From Candidatus Schekmanbacteria bacterium (GTDB lineage Bacteria > CSSED10-310 > JACPHN01): a stretch of 57,523 bases of DNA. Positions 6,027 through 14,072 of this stretch are shown here, piece by piece. The translations under genes and the position numbers were made by a program. The notes beneath the pieces are model-generated. The model had not been told where the DNA came from. It searched no databases and saw only the letters and a list, made by a program, of their open reading frames with translations. The stretch spans positions 1-57,523 of the forward strand of contig JACPHN010000108.1 of NCBI GenBank assembly GCA_016188575.1, in the 5' to 3' direction. Within the stretch, counting starts at the first letter, position 1. Each line of letters begins with the position of its first letter.

Positions 6027-7082
6027 CTACTCGCGCCCTTCCTCCTGCGCCAGCCGATAGACGAAGGAAAGGACCTCGGCAACCGCCTCGTACAACGCCT
6101 CAGGGATCTCCTCGTCGGTCTCCAGCTCGTAAAGCGCCTGCGCGAGCGGCACATTATGGATGATCGGCACGCCCGCCTCCTTGGCGATCTCCTTGATCTT
6201 CTCGGCCATCAAGTTCTGGCCTTTGGCGACCATGCGCGGGGCGTTCCAGTTCTCGCGGTCATACTGAACGGCCGTTGCCAGGTGGTTGGGGTTGGTGACC
6301 ACCGCATCGGCTTTCGCCGCAGCCTTCGCCCCACCGCCGAACGCCGTTTCCATGGCGATCTGCTTCCGCTTGCCCTTGATCTCAGGGTCGCCTTCCTGGC
6401 CCTTGTACTCCTGTTTGATGTCGTCCTTGGACATCTTCAGACCCTTCTTGTGCTGCCATTTCTGTACAGCAAAGTCCATAACGCCCATCGCAACAAAGAA
6501 AACGCCGCAGCGTGTAACCATGTCAAATATGATGTCATTGGTTATTCCAACGCTTCCTCGCACATTATAGAAACCAGTCATCATAATTGCATGCAGCGCA
6601 TCCATCATGATCAAGTAGCACAAGATCAACGCTCCGCCCAACTTGATGCTCGACAAGATGAGCGTGATTAGCGTCTGCATCTTGAACATGTTCTTCAGGC
6701 CGGCAATGGGGTTTAGCTTCTTTATGTCTGGCTTCAATGGTTCCGTGACAAAAAGCGAGCCTACCTGCATGAACATCAAGAAGCCACCCAGGACCATGAC
6801 CGCCGCCAATACAGGCAAAGTGACCTCAATGATGAGAGAAGTCCCCTCCTTGAGCACTTCGACAAACAGCCCCGGCTGTGGCGAATCCGTCATTGCCCAG
6901 TCGAGGCATCGGAGCAAGTAGGCGCGGATCTTCTCTCCGGCGCCCGGCGCGGTCTTGAGGAGCAGAACGGCGCCGATGAGAAATGCGAAGGCACCGGAAA
7001 AATCCTTGCTCTTGGCGACCTGACCCTTCTTGCGGGCATCCCGCATTTTTTGCGGGGTAGGTTCCTCTGTTTTCTCACCCAT
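6027..7082 (-). CDS. sctU: Type III secretion export-gate switch protein SctU (FlhB/YscU family)
   Basis: A 351-residue inner-membrane protein of the FlhB/YscU family that controls substrate switching in type III export. The N-terminal signature EEPTPQKMRDARKKGQVAKS is near-perfect. Four membrane segments lie between about residues 30 and 215, then a cytoplasmic domain with the autocleavage site. Here the site reads NPNH (residues 264-267) instead of the usual NPTH. Asn264-Pro265, where cleavage occurs, are kept. The start is the ATG at 7082 with CGGAG eight bases upstream. It is the last gene of the sctQ-fliO-sctR-sctS-sctT-sctU run. Cleavage motif and N-terminus look more like secretion systems than flagella. 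Confidence 0.9.
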   Translation of the reverse strand: MGEKTEEPTPQKMRDARKKGQVAKSKDFSGAFAFLIGAVLLLKTAPGAGEKIRAYLLRCLDWAMTDSPQPGLFVEVLKEGTSLIIEVTLPVLAAVMVLGGFLMFMQVGSLFVTEPLKPDIKKLNPIAGLKNMFKMQTLITLILSSIKLGGALILCYLIMMDALHAIMMTGFYNVRGSVGITNDIIFDMVTRCGVFFVAMGVMDFAVQKWQHKKGLKMSKDDIKQEYKGQEGDPEIKGKRKQIAMETAFGGGAKAAAKADAVVTNPNHLATAVQYDRENWNAPRMVAKGQNLMAEKIKEIAKEAGVPIIHNVPLAQALYELETDEEIPEALYEAVAEVLSFVYRLAQEEGRE

Positions 7083-7166
7083 GGATTCCACTCCGAGGGT
7101 CGACATGTGCGCGCACTGCGGCTTCGTTATCGGTCCGTACCGCCAGCAAGTTGCGCCGCCGTACCC

Positions 7167-7988
7167 TCAACTTCCGCGCGCGATCAAGCGCACGTAGTAG
7201 TCCACCCACCGCGGGATCATTCCGAGGATGACCTCCATTTGCTCCACGATGAGACTGATGCCGACCATCACTGCCCACACGCCGACGATCATTTTGGTCG
7301 GCGCCGCGACAAAATCGATCTTGATCTGCTGGGCAACGCGCCCCAGGATGCCAACCACGGCGTCGGTCAGAAAGACCAGAATGAACGCCGGAAGGTTGAG
7401 CTGAATGGCGACGAGCCACATGTTTGCGGTCAGACGCACAATCAGATCCAGCGCCGGCCCGACCCCCTGACCGAACGTCGGGTATTCCGTGACGCCGATC
7501 ATCGTAAAGCTGGTGAAAAAACCACTCAGGAACACGCGATGGGCGCCTGTCAGGAATACGAGCTGAATGGCGAGCTGAAACAGCAATATGCCCAGGTGCG
7601 AAGCCTGCGTCCCAAAGGCGGGATCCTGCATCGACGCCATCGAGGCGCCTCTGGCCATGTCGACAAGGTGCCCGGACATCATGATCGCGTGCATGAGGTG
7701 GGCGGCAATGAATCCTATCGTCATGCCGAGAAAGATCTCCTTGAGCAGCAGGAGCACGTATTCCCCGGTCGAGGGAGGAAACGCTGAAGGATCGAGCGGC
7801 GCCGCGATCGGGTAGATGAAGATCGACAAGATGAATGCAAGACTCATCTTGGTGCGCCCGGGCACGGATTTCCCCCCGATAAAGGGCACCAGCACGATGA
7901 TCGGCTGGACACGCGCCATGATCAATCCCCAGGTCTTGATGACAAAAACCACATCAAGACCCCCGAGGATTTCCGCTAGCTCTTTCAT
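7167..7988 (-). CDS. sctT: Type III secretion export-gate protein SctT (FliR/SpaR family)
   Basis: A 273-residue polytopic protein of the FliR/YscT/SpaR family, part of the SctR5-S4-T1 export gate in the inner membrane. Sequence landmarks are RVQPIIVLVPFIGGKSVPGR near the N-terminus, IFLGMTIGFIAAHLMHA in the middle and the C-terminal LPAFILVFLTDAVVGILGRVAQQ. Gene order between sctS and sctU matches both flagellar fliQ-fliR-flhB and secretion sctS-sctT-sctU. A GAGGT-containing leader precedes the ATG. Length is close to the usual ~260. Nothing is missing. Confidence 0.9.
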   Translation of the reverse strand: MKELAEILGGLDVVFVIKTWGLIMARVQPIIVLVPFIGGKSVPGRTKMSLAFILSIFIYPIAAPLDPSAFPPSTGEYVLLLLKEIFLGMTIGFIAAHLMHAIMMSGHLVDMARGASMASMQDPAFGTQASHLGILLFQLAIQLVFLTGAHRVFLSGFFTSFTMIGVTEYPTFGQGVGPALDLIVRLTANMWLVAIQLNLPAFILVFLTDAVVGILGRVAQQIKIDFVAAPTKMIVGVWAVMVGISLIVEQMEVILGMIPRWVDYYVRLIARGS

Positions 7989-8052
7989 CAGGCTACTCTA
8001 CCTCGTGCAGCGCGGCTGCCCCACTTCATCCGCCCGAGGCTCCGGGACATCA

Positions 8053-8322
8053 TCAGCCGCCCAGGTACTTCGGAAAGGCCTCGTAAAGCGATTGAGAAAA
8101 GCGAATCATCTGCGCCATCATCCAGTACCCCATCAGCCCCAGCAGTCCCAGCACCACGAGCATTTTCGGCACGAAGGACAAGGTCTGCTCCTGTATCTGC
8201 GTCGTCGCCTGGATCAGACTGACGAAAAGTCCGACCACCATACTGATTCCCACCGGCAAGCCCGAGATGATGACGACCATCATCAACGCCTCGCGGCAAA
8301 TCTGCACCAAAAACTGCTCCAC
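8053..8322 (-). CDS. sctS: Type III secretion export-gate protein SctS (FliQ family)
   Basis: An 89-residue hydrophobic protein with two membrane helices, the length and layout of FliQ/SctS. It contains SGLPVGISMVVGLFVSLIQA and the segment TQIQEQTLSFVPKM, both typical of the family. Four copies wrap around the SctR-SctT cone in known export gates. The start is GTG, preceded by AGGAGG at seven to eight bases. It follows sctR by 12 bases and precedes sctT. Confidence 0.92.
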   Translation of the reverse strand: MEQFLVQICREALMMVVIISGLPVGISMVVGLFVSLIQATTQIQEQTLSFVPKMLVVLGLLGLMGYWMMAQMIRFSQSLYEAFPKYLGG

Positions 8323-8334
8323 GCTGCCACCCTC

Positions 8335-9351
8335 CTACAAATATCCGATGACGAGGCCCTTCGTCAGCAGGTACCACCCGTCGATCAAAACAAATAGCAG
8401 AATTTTGAATGGCAGCGATATCGTAGTCGGTGATAGCATTGACATACCGAGCGCCTGAAGGACGTTGGCGACAATCATGTCGATTACCAAGAACGGAACA
8501 AAAAGTATGAATCCAATCTGAAATGCCTCTTTTAGCTGACTGATCGCAAAAGCCGGGATCAGGACCATGAAATCGTGTGGCCCAATCATCGGCGTGCGAT
8601 CCTCAGCAGAGGCATTCTTCTTCAATCCATGTCGGTGCAACTGCATACCAACGCTGTAGAATAACATGCGCTCTCTCTTATGTGCATGCTTCTCCAAGAA
8701 CTCTCTTAGTGGCTCTTTGCCCTTGTCAAACGCCAATTTCCCTATCGATACGGTTGCGTTCGACAATAGGGGTTGTCCGGTTTTTACTTCTACTATGTCT
8801 CTTATCTCATTATGTATTCTCGCCCCAACCGGCATCATGATAAATATGGTTAATATCATAGACAGACCAATGATAATCTGGTTCGGCGGAATCTGCTGGG
8901 TCCCAAGCGCGTTTCTCAGAATCGAAAAAGTCACGCTCACCTTCACAAAAGAGGTGACCATCGTGAGCAGGAACGGTGCCAACGAAACCGCCACAAGCGC
9001 TCCCATCATCAGCATGGGGCGGCTCACAGGGGTGTCGCTTCGCGATTCGGACAGGATGTCGCGCAGCGATTCCTCCACATTCGGCTCCGTGGTCGCCGTC
9101 GGTGTAGGCGGCGACGCCACCGGTGCCGCCGTGGCCACGGGCGTCTGTGCCTGCGCGCCAGCGGTCATCAGCAGTCCGCCCATCACGATTACAGCGGCGA
9201 GAAGCGAGGCGCGGACCGCCCAGCCGCGGGCGTGCCGGCGGCGGGCGCCGCGAGTGCGCGCGGGGACGGACGCCGCGGCGAACTGGCTGCGGATCGGCGG
9301 GCGATTCGGGGATTCCCACTCCATCCGCGATACGCCACTGGGCTGCGTCAT
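8335..9351 (-). CDS. sctR: Type III secretion export-gate protein SctR with FliP-like signal/leader
   Basis: A 338-residue FliP/SctR family protein. The core has SFVKVSVTFSILRNALGTQQ, then IPPNQ, and the C-terminal SPTTISLPFKILLFVLIDGW. Typical SctR is about 215 residues. Here a ~45-residue Arg-rich leader, a hydrophobic segment ending in AGAQAQ (signal-peptide-like, as in FliP) and a Pro/Thr/Ala linker are added. The ATG at 9351 overlaps the TGA of the fliO-like gene as ATGA, supporting this start; an internal ATG nine codons on is possible. From about 8390 to 8880 the coding strand uses ATA, AGA, TTA and CTA codons rare elsewhere in the window, an unexplained codon-usage island. Confidence 0.88.
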   Translation of the reverse strand: MTQPSGVSRMEWESPNRPPIRSQFAAASVPARTRGARRRHARGWAVRASLLAAVIVMGGLLMTAGAQAQTPVATAAPVASPPTPTATTEPNVEESLRDILSESRSDTPVSRPMLMMGALVAVSLAPFLLTMVTSFVKVSVTFSILRNALGTQQIPPNQIIIGLSMILTIFIMMPVGARIHNEIRDIVEVKTGQPLLSNATVSIGKLAFDKGKEPLREFLEKHAHKRERMLFYSVGMQLHRHGLKKNASAEDRTPMIGPHDFMVLIPAFAISQLKEAFQIGFILFVPFLVIDMIVANVLQALGMSMLSPTTISLPFKILLFVLIDGWYLLTKGLVIGYL

Positions 9352-10007
9352 GATTGTTTCCCTCCCGCGAGCGCTCTGAAGAGGGCTCGCACTCCATTTT
9401 GGTCGCGCGGCGCCTGGCGAGCGTTCGTTGCCGGCCCCGCAGTTTCTTCCGCCAAGAGCTCGTCGACATCACTTGCCGGGATCTCCGCGAGGGTGTCGAG
9501 ACCCTTTTCTCCCGATCCGAGCAGAAAGTAGCGCTTCCCCGCCCGCACGATGTGAACCGTCCGGTTAGGCGCCACGCCAACGGTGTCCATGACCGCCAGC
9601 AAGCGCCCGCGCGGCACCGCAGACCGATACGCTCGCGGCAGACCCAGGCGCAAGACAACGTAGGCGCCGCCGCCGACGAAGGTGAGGGCAAGCAGGGTCT
9701 TGAGGAGCAGACCCACGCCGAGGAGCCCTTCCATAGGAGGCGCATCATCCTCGCCTATCGCCGGCCCGGTATTCGCCGGCGCCTCGCGCTCGTCGCTCGC
9801 CGCTACCACATCGCTGCGCGGGGAGCTGACGTCAGGAACCGGCTCCTCCAAGACCGCAGCACCCGCGGGGGCGCTGGCCACGGCCGTAGTCTCAGGCTCG
9901 GCGCCCGCGAGTGACAGGCTCGCGACCAGCACTACGGCAGCGCCTATCAGCCAGCCCGCGCGCCGTTGGGGCGCGAGCACGTCGGCGGAGCAAGTCACGT
10001 GGCTCAC
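9348..10007 (-). CDS. FliO-like membrane protein of the export operon
   Basis: About 219 residues with an N-terminal hydrophobic signal/anchor, an acidic Pro/Ala linker, a second membrane helix around residues 95-115 and a small basic-hydrophobic domain (RGRLLAVMDTVGVAPNRTVH, then IVRAGKRYFLLGSGEKGLDT). That layout and the pattern of the last domain match FliO, the flagellar assembly factor for FliP. FliO is normally absent from non-flagellar secretion systems. Position between sctQ and sctR is exactly that of fliO. The start is uncertain: GTG at 10007 follows the sctQ stop directly, another GTG is at 9998, and neither has a clear ribosome-binding site. The family call is by layout and context. 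Confidence 0.65.
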   Translation of the reverse strand: MSHVTCSADVLAPQRRAGWLIGAAVVLVASLSLAGAEPETTAVASAPAGAAVLEEPVPDVSSPRSDVVAASDEREAPANTGPAIGEDDAPPMEGLLGVGLLLKTLLALTFVGGGAYVVLRLGLPRAYRSAVPRGRLLAVMDTVGVAPNRTVHIVRAGKRYFLLGSGEKGLDTLAEIPASDVDELLAEETAGPATNARQAPRDQNGVRALFRALAGGKQS

Positions 10008-10011
10008 GAGA

Positions 10012-11658
10012 CTAGCGGAACAGGTTGAGCACGCGGACACCCAACTTCCCCTCGACGTCGACGAGCTCCCCCTTCGCCACGGTGCGGCCTTCGACTGCGA
10101 GATCGACGGGTTCTCCGGGGATCTTGTTGAGCTCAATGATCTGGCCTGGACGGATTTTCATCAGATCCTTCATGGTCATGATTGCCTGACCAATAACGAT
10201 TTTCACCGGGACATACACGTCGCTGAGCATGGGATAGGCCTGGTCCAGGTTGTCTGCCTCTTGACCTCCGCCACCAGGGCCGTCCGGGCCGAGCACCGGG
10301 CCAATATGTTCCTGCGTCGCGTCCTGTCCTTCTCGCACGCCCATGTGGGTATCCTCTCCGCGAATGATTTCTTCAACTCTGAGCTGAATTGTGCGGCCTT
10401 CCTTGACGATGACGGCGCGCAACCCACCCGCTCCCGGCCGATAATTGACACGCAGGATGACGGGTCCTCGCAGCTCGCCCTCGACGAGCCGCAAGCCGAG
10501 GTCATCGATGAGCACGACGTCTCCCAGACGTAGCCCGTTGATTTCGGCCTCGTTGAGCTCCAGCCTGCCGAGCTCGGCCCACATGCGGGTGCGATAGCTC
10601 GCCCAGGGTATCAGCCGCTCGCGAAGCAGCGCAATCTCCCGCGCCGACATGTCCTTGATGCTGTCGGGATCGGGCAGAAACCCCTCGAGGATCGCGGGCT
10701 GCGGCAGGAAGACGTGAACGTAGCCGCCATTGGCACCGATCGACCAGTCGAGGGAAAGCAGCACACCGGTCTCCGCCGCTGGAATCTCGCGCTCGGACAA
10801 CAGCGTGCGGGCATCGATGAGGCCATGCAAGCGGAGGTGCACGCGAGGCCGATCGCCCCACTCCTCGTGGAGCAGATGCAGAACCTTGAGAAAAACAAAC
10901 TCCAACACCCCGCGCTCTAGCTCCGAGAGCCCGACAGCCGCCTGGTCCCGCGCTTCCGTGCCGCCGAGAAAGCTGCTGACCAGGAAAGTCGCAAGCTCAC
11001 TGTCCACTTCCACGAGGCACTCATGGTTGGTGGGGATCATCAGCACGCGCGCGACCTGCCCGCCTTTCGGTACCGCCTTGAGAAATGCGGCGGTGCCGCA
11101 GGTCTCGACTCGCCGCAGGCGAATCCGCTGGCGAAGCTGATGGCTGGCCTCGCTGCGCACCGAAAACCGCAGCTCGTAGCATTCGACGAGAATCATGTCA
11201 CCGTCGCGGAGCGCTTCCGGCGTCTCGGGCAAAAGCCGCCTGCCGTTGACTAGCGTGCCGTTGGTCGAGCGGAGGTCCACTGCGTAGTAGCGTCCATCCT
11301 GTGCATAGATCTTGGCGTGCCGTCCCGACACGGCCTTGTCGGCAAGCTGTAAGGTGTTGTCAGCGTGTCTGCCGATTACCATTGGGGTTTCGCCGAGCGC
11401 GAACATGGTGCCGCTTGGCGTCGCCCTCTGCTCGTCACGGGATACCACTTCGATGGTAGCAACCTCGTCGCGGGCCTCATCGAGGCCGAACTTGTGCAGC
11501 AGACTGGCGAGCCTGCCAAAGAAATCTTCCTTGAAAAGCGACAGCGGCACGATTCCTGTCAGGCTTTCCACGAGTCGCGCCTGCTGCGCATCGACCTTGG
11601 GCAGCGACTGAAGGGTAAGTGGCCTGATTTTCTTGCTCTGAGCGGTGTCGGTGGTCAT
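10012..11658 (-). CDS. sctQ: SctQ/FliM-FliN-type C-ring protein with N-terminal FHA domain
   Basis: A 548-residue protein, well above the ~300 residues usual for SctQ. Residues about 83-168 are an FHA phosphothreonine-binding domain with its key residues present: GRHADN (96-101), SGRH (111-114) and STNGT (131-135). A middle region follows. Two SPOA (surface presentation of antigens) domains lie near 378-445 and 475-548, the last reading ELNKIPGEPVDLAVEGR. SPOA domains build the cytoplasmic sorting platform that docks export substrates. A Gly/Pro-rich linker separates the two. The ATG overlaps the upstream stop as ATGA. The FHA domain suggests that platform assembly responds to a Ser/Thr kinase; no such kinase is in the window. 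Confidence 0.88.
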   Translation of the reverse strand: MTTDTAQSKKIRPLTLQSLPKVDAQQARLVESLTGIVPLSLFKEDFFGRLASLLHKFGLDEARDEVATIEVVSRDEQRATPSGTMFALGETPMVIGRHADNTLQLADKAVSGRHAKIYAQDGRYYAVDLRSTNGTLVNGRRLLPETPEALRDGDMILVECYELRFSVRSEASHQLRQRIRLRRVETCGTAAFLKAVPKGGQVARVLMIPTNHECLVEVDSELATFLVSSFLGGTEARDQAAVGLSELERGVLEFVFLKVLHLLHEEWGDRPRVHLRLHGLIDARTLLSEREIPAAETGVLLSLDWSIGANGGYVHVFLPQPAILEGFLPDPDSIKDMSAREIALLRERLIPWASYRTRMWAELGRLELNEAEINGLRLGDVVLIDDLGLRLVEGELRGPVILRVNYRPGAGGLRAVIVKEGRTIQLRVEEIIRGEDTHMGVREGQDATQEHIGPVLGPDGPGGGGQEADNLDQAYPMLSDVYVPVKIVIGQAIMTMKDLMKIRPGQIIELNKIPGEPVDLAVEGRTVAKGELVDVEGKLGVRVLNLFR

Positions 11659-12488
11659 GGCTTGTCCAGGTTTTCCTCTCCGATAGTGGCGCCTTCCAAC
11701 AGGGCGCCGTCAAGACGGGCGCCGTCCAACTTGGCGTCAACCAGGTTGGCTCTCTTGAGGAAAGCGCCATGCAGGTCGGCGCCGCTGAGATCGGCACCGC
11801 GCAAGTCGGCCTCGCTCAGGTTGGCGTGCCGGAGCGAGCAACGGCTCAGATCGGCGCCTTGGAGATTGGCGGCGCGCAGGTTTGCGTAGTCCAGGCAGGC
11901 CCCGGTGAGCACCGCCGAGGCCAGGTCAGCGCGCTTCAACGTCGCCTTTTGCAGGTTTGCCCCCACGAGGCGGGCCCGCCGCAGAAACGCATTCTTGAGA
12001 CTCGACCACTCCAGATTCGCGGAGCTGAGATCGGCGTCCTCCAAGTCAGCGTTATTGAGGTCCACATCCTTCAGGTTGGCCTTGACCAATTTCGCGCGGA
12101 CCAGGTTTGCATCTTCCATGTCCGCCTTGTACAGATCGGCGGCATTCAGGAGACACTCCTCCAAGTTCGCCTCTTCCAGGTCTACGTGGGGCATGCGCGC
12201 TTGCTGCAGGTCGGCTTCTTTCAGGTTGGCACCGTACATGTTGACCAGTTGCATCTCGGTTTTGCCCATTTTGGCGCGAAAGAGGTTGGCGCGCCACATG
12301 CTGACCGCCGAGAAGCGGGAGCGCGAAAAGTCCGCGTTGGAGAGGTCGCGATGGTCGAGATCGAGCCCCGAGAGATCGAGATCCTGGAGCGGCTGCCCGC
12401 CGAGCTCGACATCGTCGATGTCCAGCCCGGCAACGCCCTGACCAGATCGCAGCCGGTTCAGCAACTCGTCCAGGGAAACTTTCCTCAT
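11655..12488 (-). CDS. Pentapeptide-repeat protein
   Basis: A 277-residue protein made almost wholly of A(D/N)LXX pentapeptide repeats from about residue 35 to the end, expected to fold as a right-handed quadrilateral beta-helix. The first ~30 residues are different and may cap the helix. The ATG has GGAGG five bases upstream. The stop overlaps the sctQ start as ATGA, so it is translationally coupled to the FHA-SctQ protein. No signal peptide is seen, so it starts in the cytoplasm. It may be a platform scaffold or a secreted substrate; known pentapeptide effectors exist in Salmonella, but nothing here proves secretion. Confidence 0.9.
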   Translation of the reverse strand: MRKVSLDELLNRLRSGQGVAGLDIDDVELGGQPLQDLDLSGLDLDHRDLSNADFSRSRFSAVSMWRANLFRAKMGKTEMQLVNMYGANLKEADLQQARMPHVDLEEANLEECLLNAADLYKADMEDANLVRAKLVKANLKDVDLNNADLEDADLSSANLEWSSLKNAFLRRARLVGANLQKATLKRADLASAVLTGACLDYANLRAANLQGADLSRCSLRHANLSEADLRGADLSGADLHGAFLKRANLVDAKLDGARLDGALLEGATIGEENLDKP

Positions 12489-12506
12489 GAGAGATCCTCC
12501 GACTCG

Positions 12507-14072
12507 TCAAAAATCCACGCGAACCGAGTGCTCGCCGCTGTTGTTCAGCCGCTGCCAATCGTTGATCCCCAACTGCAGTGCTCCCGATCCAGGTGCGGCG
12601 ACGCCCGCGCTACCGACCAGAAAGATCGAGCCGGCACTGCCGATTCTACCGATGAGCGCGCCATGAGGGAAGCCAGGGACAGGGTCGAGGGCGCGGTTGG
12701 AGGCGCATTCGGTAAGCTTGTTGCACAACGCGCTCGACAGCCCGCCCGGACCGGCGCTCGCGGATCCCCCTCGGCAATCCTCTTCCTGATCCAGACAAAT
12801 CGTCCCCGTGACGGCGGCGGTGATGCGATCCCCTTTCTCGACCCGGATCCCGGCAACCTGCAGCGCCGACGTTTCAGCGTCCCGCGCCGGAACGGACACG
12901 GTCACTGTGGTATCCGTCGCGGTGGTTGCCCGCGAAGTCTCGGTCAGCGGGGAATTCCCGTTGAGACCGAGCGCCTTGATGCGATAGCCGTACGCGATAC
13001 CCGGTTGCAGTGTGGCATCGGCAAATGTGACGACGTTGGCCACCACCTGGCCAACCACCGCAAACTCGCCATCTCCGGTCTGGCGTTGCAGCTCCAGCCC
13101 TTGCTCGAGGCAGCCCGCCCAGTTCGTGCCGTCGGACGGATCGTGCCAGCGGATTTGCACTTGATTCTGACCGGTGGGAATGGCGCGAAAGCTGCGCGGC
13201 ATCGCCGGCACATCCCCCGTTGTGGAGGCCTCGAGATCTGCGGAGATAAGGCCATCGGCGAGCTCGTGCCGCACGCGAGCGCGGGCGACCAGGTAGGAGC
13301 ATGAGTCCAGGTCCGTCAGCGTGATGGACCCCGCCGCAGGGTCCGTGCTTGCGGCCGATTCGTACCAGGTGTCGCGAAACCGCAGGTCGAGGGTAAAGAA
13401 GACTCCTGGCGGATACGGCTGGAGATTCCAACCAATGACCAGAAAGTCGTCGCCGCGGCCCTTCAGATACAAGATCGGCGGCGGCAGTGGCCCCACTCCT
13501 GTCAGCACGGCCGAGCGGTCGCTCTCGTTGCCGGCGAGGTCGAGAGCCGTGACGTACACGTTACCGGTGATATCTGGCATCGACACTTTGGTAGCATACT
13601 TGATCGGCGATCTGTACCCAAAGAGCTCTGCGTTTCCCGTCCAGTAGACGCGGTAACCGAAAATCTCGGAAACGGCAATCGGGACGCCGTTGGCGCGCGT
13701 TACCGGCGGGACGAAATCGAGAATGATGTGGGTCATGCTCAGGGGAAACCAGCGAATCGAGGTTGGGGGTCGGGGCGGCGGCAGCGTGGCGTCGAACGTC
13801 ACCGCGGCGGAATGGTCGGCACCGGCCCGTCCGGGTGTGGGCCCGGCGACCGCCCAAGCCAGCGTGATCAGGAGGACGATCACCGCGACGAGCGGCGCAC
13901 GCGCGCCGCAAATCGCCCGTTGCTGCGGGACCGGGTCGTGGCGGAGGTCGCTTCCGTCATGCCGGTCCCTGGCCTTCGCCGGGAGGAATGTTGCCGGCAT
14001 GGCGATGATGGCGCCCTCGCGTCCAGTAGACGGGTGGTTTCGAGCGCCGCGACACCCTGACATGTTGCTCAT
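12507..14072 (-). CDS. Membrane-anchored or secreted protein with FN3 repeats and a LecA-like C-terminal domain
   Basis: About 521 residues. A basic N-terminus of ~55 residues precedes a hydrophobic segment (LVAVIVLLITLAWAVAG). Fibronectin type III-like repeats follow, the clearest near residues 300-400 (VQIRWHDPSDG and GYRIKALGLNGNSP). The last ~115 residues resemble the beta-sandwich of PA-IL-type lectins: GALIGRIG, then VGSAG and LQLGINDW, with a final NSGEHSVRVDF. The start is uncertain among GTG 14087, ATG 14072 and ATG 14063. The gene lies 18 bp upstream of the pentapeptide gene and heads the type III operon. Being exported by Sec and carbohydrate-binding are inferences from the layout. 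Confidence 0.7.
   Translation of the reverse strand: MSNMSGCRGARNHPSTGREGAIIAMPATFLPAKARDRHDGSDLRHDPVPQQRAICGARAPLVAVIVLLITLAWAVAGPTPGRAGADHSAAVTFDATLPPPRPPTSIRWFPLSMTHIILDFVPPVTRANGVPIAVSEIFGYRVYWTGNAELFGYRSPIKYATKVSMPDITGNVYVTALDLAGNESDRSAVLTGVGPLPPPILYLKGRGDDFLVIGWNLQPYPPGVFFTLDLRFRDTWYESAASTDPAAGSITLTDLDSCSYLVARARVRHELADGLISADLEASTTGDVPAMPRSFRAIPTGQNQVQIRWHDPSDGTNWAGCLEQGLELQRQTGDGEFAVVGQVVANVVTFADATLQPGIAYGYRIKALGLNGNSPLTETSRATTATDTTVTVSVPARDAETSALQVAGIRVEKGDRITAAVTGTICLDQEEDCRGGSASAGPGGLSSALCNKLTECASNRALDPVPGFPHGALIGRIGSAGSIFLVGSAGVAAPGSGALQLGINDWQRLNNSGEHSVRVDF

Follow-up and report, generated by a model that had tools for sequence, protein, structure and literature searches.

A predicted secretin-less, myxobacterial-type type III secretion system in a Candidatus Schekmanbacteria genome, with FliO- and FliG-like proteins

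Contig JACPHN010000108.1 from Candidatus Schekmanbacteria bacterium (assembly GCA_016188575.1), all 57,523 nucleotides of which we refer to as the window, carries on its minus strand an operon for the export apparatus of a type III secretion system (T3SS). Very probably, this operon encodes the export gate and the pod protein of a non-flagellar (NF), secretin-less T3SS of the myxobacterial type (the "Myxo" NF-T3SS or T3SS*), in which FliO, FliG, and the gene order were retained from the flagellum. Our tree supports placing the operon in the known myxobacterial clade, in a different phylum. Judging by protein sequences, the FliG homologs, needle-like genes, and needle-tailed proteins that we describe extend the published description of this clade.

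Phylogenetic placement of the export operon

We scored the operon's proteins against Pfam and NCBIfam. An earlier note on this DNA had read the operon as sctQ, a fliO-like gene, sctR, sctS, sctT, and sctU, and Pfam confirmed all of these genes. SctU, the export switch protein (359 amino acids; 6027-7106, minus strand like the rest), matches Bac_export_2 (E = 1.9e-106). As the earlier note proposed, SctU looks non-flagellar: NCBIfam's SctU model gives it 345.9 bits and FlhB 317.7 bits, and the tree described below agrees. SctT (273 amino acids; 7167-7988) matches Bac_export_1 (3.1e-48), and SctS (89 amino acids; 8053-8322) matches Bac_export_3 (1.8e-26), with a slight preference for FliQ in NCBIfam. 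SctR (338 amino acids; 8335-9351) matches Pfam's FliP over residues 119-333 (2.8e-66); in NCBIfam, it is above the cutoff for SctR and under the cutoff for FliP. The FliP-like signal segment that had been noticed in SctR is indeed there, as a hydrophobic, signal-like N-terminus that is also seen in the same genome's flagellar FliP.

For comparison, we scanned named genomes and obtained 80 loci from Myxococcota, deltaproteobacterial metagenome-assembled genomes (MAGs), Acidobacteriota, and Eisenbacteria. These named loci were selected as those matching the window's SctR best, and our counts describe that clade rather than T3SS in general. In GC-rich loci, the first gene caller produced shadow frames, so we ran the profiles on six-frame open reading frames (ORFs). 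Our sampling of the window's own phylum was sparse: eight genomes, of which four contain SctR.

We then have a tree of concatenated SctR, SctS, SctT, and SctU from 56 taxa (LG+F+G4, 1000 ultrafast bootstraps). The non-flagellar systems, including the window's, form one clade outside the flagella (ultrafast bootstrap support, or UFBoot, of 100). Within it, the window groups with G007, a genome from the same phylum (93), inside the clade of named loci from Myxococcota, deltaproteobacterial MAGs, Acidobacteriota, and Eisenbacteria (98). The earlier note had suggested another lineage like the secretin-less systems of myxobacteria; the likeness holds, but the operon belongs to the known lineage instead of a further one. 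The sister of this clade is weakly supported (79) and includes classic T3SS, a second Myxococcus system, and systems from two more genomes of the phylum, G002 and G003. The classic references were rhizobial or from Paraburkholderia, Mycetohabitans, Enterobacter, and Paracoccus only, with the Ysc, SPI, and Chlamydia types unsampled. By our reading, the second Myxococcus system is of the "short" type, as SctN, SctL, and a FliG-like gene were not found within the stretch read.

We made two side observations. The systems of G002 and G003 (loci L037, L039, and L040) are of a different kind that branches with classic systems, so there are two types of T3SS in the phylum. Also, records named Comamonas (L111) and Microvirga (L128) carry T3SS genes like those of Myxococcus and of the Acidobacteriota group; these assemblies were probably contaminated or given the wrong name.

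The rest of the system in the genome

The earlier note had called for a search of the whole genome, which is 9.2 Mb in 275 contigs and 93.8% complete. Our profile searches covered the secretin, flagellin, needle, SctJ, SctN, and SctV families, and they turned up a second set of SctV, SctJ, and SctN: FlhA/SctV, FliP/SctR, FliF/SctJ, and FliI/SctN each occur twice in the genome. One set is flagellar and lies apart from the T3SS genes, on contigs C164 and C4, with MotA, FliE, FlgC, FliM, and FliO; flagellins are elsewhere. Clustering inside the flagella, together with a complete flagellar set, had been named in advance as what would speak against a secretion system, and we found non-flagellar export proteins and a separate flagellar set.

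The T3SS set is dispersed over three contigs: the window, C93, and C195. An operon on C93 encodes a lipoprotein-type SctJ (301 amino acids, with a lipobox-like SSSGC), a FliG-like protein, SctL/FliH, SctN, SctO (YscO, 3.1e-22), and SctP/FliK, and C93 also has SctI-like and needle-like genes. C195 contains a TPR gene and SctV. Each non-flagellar part is present once, from which we infer that the three loci act together. The layout in G007 is the same, without a flagellar copy of FlhA. The profile of the SctI-like family matches MxiI in the PDB (3.7e-4), and SctI is present in 40/42 named loci that have SctJ.

We ran profiles on the T3SS operon but not on every other predicted gene of the window, and saw no genes for a rod, hook, filament, secretin, or needle there; the whole-genome searches gave zero matches inside the window. 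The earlier note's remark that such genes are missing from the window agrees with this, but needle-like and rod-like genes lie on C93.

Needle-like proteins

The needle-like family consists of proteins of 71-81 amino acids; in Myxococcus and Corallococcus loci, their genes are near those for SctU and SctV. In the window's genome, the putative needle (SctF) gene is on C93 (L013:13519-13764) and encodes 81 amino acids. Needle-like genes are found in 27/29 named loci that have SctU and SctV, and many other loci encode longer proteins with the same C-terminal part. When we compared the family's profile to the PDB, the twelve best matches were all T3SS needles and aligned over nearly the whole profile: EscF (2.4e-6), PrgI (5.3e-4), MxiH (9.7e-4), and YscF (0.056) were among them. 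The EscF match is to chain F of 7y6c, which the entry labels as a needle co-chaperone, but it has the C-terminal sequence of the needle. Pfam's T3SS_needle_F gave sub-threshold matches to 6/16 members (best 8.3e-6). The ORFs have Shine-Dalgarno-like sites and, in close pairs, third-position bias. The predicted fold is a helix-turn-helix (helices at 3-28 and 32-72) of modest confidence (predicted local distance difference test, or pLDDT, of 66.6), and Foldseek with this model returned nothing useful. Other Pfam names on the 81-residue protein, such as mRNA_triPase, we judged to be chance matches.

Alternatively, the small proteins might be regulators or cargo for export whose C-terminal helix is shared with needles. 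This is a possibility to take seriously, even if we think it the less likely one. It fits with the occurrence of the same tail at the end of proteins of 208-710 amino acids, and with the longer forms occupying the short form's place in many Myxococcota loci. However, the forms with 71-81 amino acids have the length of needles and a predicted hairpin, they align to needles nearly end to end, and they are often beside TPR genes. The needle protein YscF pairs with a TPR-like protein, YscG.

The T3SS* of M. xanthus (mxan_2434-2464) was published as needleless (Herrou 2025, PMC12075869), and both the SctF needle and FliG were given as absent from the Myxo NF-T3SS in 2012 (PMC3459982). We infer that the Myxococcus locus with a full sorting platform is T3SS*. 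In our searches both needle-like and FliG-like genes are present, and they are found equally in Myxococcota loci, so it seems that the family's published description is incomplete, and not that the window's member departs from it. In the literature from 2019 on, we found nothing that joins Myxococcus, needle, T3SS, and SctF, with the T3SS* gene list in Cell Reports 2022 outside this comparison. We found no earlier report of putative needle-subunit genes in this supposedly needleless family.

Proteins with needle-like tails

The C-terminal tail of the needle-like proteins ends four more proteins in the window's genome, of 208, 250, 420, and 655 amino acids (on C206, C248, C116, and C195, respectively), and G007 has several such proteins too. 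Across all loci, 50/64 ORFs with needle tails are accompanied by a TPR-chaperone-like ORF no more than 2 kb away on the same strand, a count that has no random-placement control and that used two profiles built partly from these loci. Several of the TPR-like neighbors were confirmed by Pfam.

The 655-residue protein (L212:7228-9195) is beside a TPR gene and contains an exact GDPHVD motif. Its match to DUF1521 is under the cutoff (19.5 vs. 23.6 bits), while proteins with the same motif from Myxococcus T3SS loci are well over it. GDPH is the cleavage motif of the calcium-induced MIIA domains found in T3SS proteins (PMC6506597), and the 655-residue protein is a candidate T3SS substrate with calcium-induced self-cleavage. 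Separately, we noticed DUF1521 (NopE-like MIIA) proteins near SctV or needle-like genes in Myxococcus/Pyxidicoccus loci L080, L083, L087, L091, L095, and L105.

For larger needle-tailed proteins beside TPR genes, one of them with GDPHVD, we also found no earlier report; their function in export is putative. Tentatively, and with the odds against us, we suggest that the family is not needleless and that the needle domain doubles as the C-terminal tail of larger exported proteins, many with an adjacent TPR chaperone. Such cargo could be exported, or built in, as a component of a needle-like filament, and the cargo with GDPHVD could perhaps be freed by calcium-induced self-cleavage.

FliO and FliG homologs

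The fliO-like gene is at 9348-10007 (the start is at 10007 or 9980). The earlier note had proposed a FliO profile as the check on this assignment, and Pfam's FliO does match (4.5e-8; 33.5 bits, with a cutoff of 22). The protein has a signal-like segment, a transmembrane helix, and a cytoplasmic FliO domain. A match to our FliO profile adjoins SctR in 79/79 named loci, and Pfam's FliO itself matches 29/30 of those FliO-like proteins that we tested. We excluded the FliO-like ORF of G003 as independent evidence because it was a seed of our profile. FliO in T3SS of Myxococcota, including both M. xanthus systems, was reported in 2025 in PNAS (PMC12403147). The statement that non-flagellar systems normally lack FliO thus no longer holds, and FliO in a myxobacterial T3SS is not new by itself.

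A FliG homolog is found in 40/42 named loci that have SctJ and SctN. Its gene lies between those for SctJ and SctL, which is SctK's place in other systems. Pfam's FliG_C matches 16/18 members and FliG_M matches 9/18. The family's profile matches FliG in the PDB (1.2e-17), and a profile from just two sequences from the phylum already picks up the flagellar FliG of the window's genome (about 1e-8). With a structural model (pLDDT 81), the top 14 Foldseek matches were all FliG or FliG-containing C-ring entries; only one had E < 0.001 and the global template modeling (TM) scores were low, while the middle domain alone gave TM scores of 0.65-0.76. The EHPQ motif has an invariant E, but the positions that align to the torque residues of E. 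coli FliG (K264, R281, D288, D289, and R297) are mostly substituted. FliG was listed as missing from Myxo systems by Abby and Rocha 2012 (PMC3459982), which is also the only literature we found that names FliG together with the M. xanthus T3SS. We found no earlier report of an apparent FliG homolog in a Myxo-type T3SS, with torque residues lost and a near-flagellar gene order.

Another possibility is that FliO and FliG were not retained but re-acquired from flagella. The shortness of FliO precludes a firm tree, and the internal branches among the T3SS FliGs are weak, which leaves some room for this idea. However, the T3SS FliGs are monophyletic (UFBoot 100), the flagellar FliG of the same genome lies outside them, and near-flagellar order is kept across the whole gene set. 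We consider re-acquisition to be unlikely.

Secretins, SctD, and SctQ

None of the five secretins in the genome, which is 93.8% complete, belongs to the T3SS: they are from type II secretion systems (T2SS), type IV pili, or a Tad locus. C73 encodes a GspD and a truncated near-copy of it, C30 another GspD, C150 PilQ, and C219 the Tad-locus secretin, with CpaB and a TadA-type ATPase. The two GspD and PilQ score over their models' cutoffs. The truncated protein (L047:9843-11327) was at first untyped; its sequence identifies it as a near-copy of the neighboring GspD, apparently from a partial duplication. In the Tad locus on C219 (L049), a MinD-like part is fused to this TadA-type ATPase, and three FHA-like proteins are encoded as well. 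By analogy to M. xanthus, this locus is a possible partner of the T3SS.

For SctD (TIGR02500), there were zero matches over the cutoff in the eight genomes of the phylum, and FHA-type partial matches only. SctD was reported for just the long Myxo variant and is not required of the short variant. If this were an ordinary injectisome, its secretin and SctD would have been lost to gaps in the assembly of the MAG. The incompleteness and the 275 contigs favor this, but the system joins a clade that was described as secretin-less (PMC3459982), and SctD is lacking over the cutoff in all eight genomes; we consider this quite improbable. The operon might also be part of a second or degenerate flagellum, given its FliO, FliG, near-flagellar order, and a genome that does carry a flagellum, but this is extremely unlikely because of the non-flagellar clade (UFBoot 100), an SctJ of 301 amino acids vs. 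about 570 for FliF, the loss of FliG's torque residues, and the distinct flagellar set. A chimeric flagellar/T3SS operon was considered as well and rejected, since the mix is common to the whole clade.

The sctQ gene (10012-11658; 548 amino acids) is present as the earlier note said, but it is not a plain sctQ: it encodes an N-terminal FHA domain (1.9e-19) fused to FliM-like (FliM, 9.6e-10) and FliN C-terminal (FliMN_C, 6.5e-21) domains. The same fusion occurs in G003 and in Acidobacteriota/Blastocatellia loci, and in many Myxococcota loci a double-FHA protein is encoded separately, next to the cluster. Yop-YscD_cpl also matches the FHA domain of the window's SctQ. Because the cytoplasmic domain of SctD is FHA-like and SctD was not found, the FHA domain on SctQ may replace part of SctD's contact role.

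Proposed mechanism and significance

We propose that in this myxobacterial-type T3SS, FliO would help SctR assemble, as FliO does for FliP. The FliG-like protein would join the SctJ ring to SctQ, as FliG joins FliF to FliM, but without torque, because the torque residues are gone. The gate would export rod and needle subunits as well as needle-tailed proteins bound to TPR chaperones, and these would cross the outer membrane via another channel, perhaps a Tad or T2SS secretin. In M. xanthus, the T3SS acts together with the Kil Tad pilus in predation, a role known from that species only. FliO, FliG, and the gene order would have been kept from the flagellum instead of being recently borrowed.

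Several points weigh against this proposal. The three T3SS loci lie on separate contigs, and at 93.8% completeness a secretin or SctD could be missing from the genome. No needle-like protein reaches the cutoff of T3SS_needle_F (best 26.3 vs. 29.4 bits), the 81-residue protein of the window's genome has no match to it on its own, and when the needle-like profile is limited to the same phylum, its match to a needle is no better than 0.0088. Also, the function of the window's system is predicted, and a link to predation would be by analogy to M. xanthus.

It has long been asked how injectisomes evolved out of flagella. With FliO and a torque-dead FliG both still in place, a near-flagellar gene order, needle- and rod-like genes, and no secretin, this clade is close to the intermediate that is predicted by the exaptation model. 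It also leads to a prediction for a laboratory organism: genes for a needle subunit and a FliG-like adaptor should be part of the "needleless" T3SS* that M. xanthus employs in predation.

Other genes of the operon

The earlier note's list was incomplete, as 6027-14072 also holds two genes upstream of sctQ. One encodes a pentapeptide-repeat protein (277 amino acids; 11655-12488; Pentapeptide, 2.2e-54) and shares 4 bases with sctQ. The other, 18 bases away, encodes a weakly fn3-like protein (12507-14072; fn3, 0.031, below the cutoff) and is probably the operon's first gene. The order is thus fn3-like, pentapeptide, FHA-SctQ, FliO, SctR, SctS, SctT, and SctU, with short gaps or overlaps. A further pentapeptide-repeat protein is encoded several kb past SctV on C195 (L010:10312-11568).

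Comparison with known systems

Like the bacterial flagellum, the clade has FliO and a FliG homolog, and related one-locus systems mirror the order fliE-F-G-H-I-J-K-M/N-O-P-Q-R-flhB-flhA. Unlike the flagellum, the export genes branch outside the flagella, the T3SS operons have no linked rod, hook, or filament genes, FliG's torque residues are lost, SctJ takes the place of FliF, and there is a needle-like gene. Classic injectisomes (Rhc, Hrp, and others) share SctJ, L, N, Q, R, S, T, U, and V as well as relatives of the needle and the inner rod. They differ in that here we found neither SctD nor the T3SS secretin SctC, while FliO and FliG are present; in the annotated classic references, no fliO separates sctQ from sctR, and the two genes abut or overlap. 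The NopE/MIIA (DUF1521) effectors (PMC6506597) have the exact GDPHVD that we see in the needle-tailed protein and in Myxococcus T3SS-locus proteins, but in the window's genome this region is attached to a needle tail and its DUF1521 match is below the cutoff.

The closest known system is the Myxo NF-T3SS of Cystobacterineae (PMC3459982), or T3SS* of M. xanthus (PMC12075869). The window's system differs in its phylum, in being split over three contigs, and in the fusion of FHA to SctQ, and our searches contradict the published absence of FliG and the needle. What the two have in common is the SctRSTU clade, the lack of a secretin of their own, the gene set and order (with SctJ, SctN, SctV, and SctI), FliO beside SctR, a FliG-like protein, a needle-like gene, and TPR genes.

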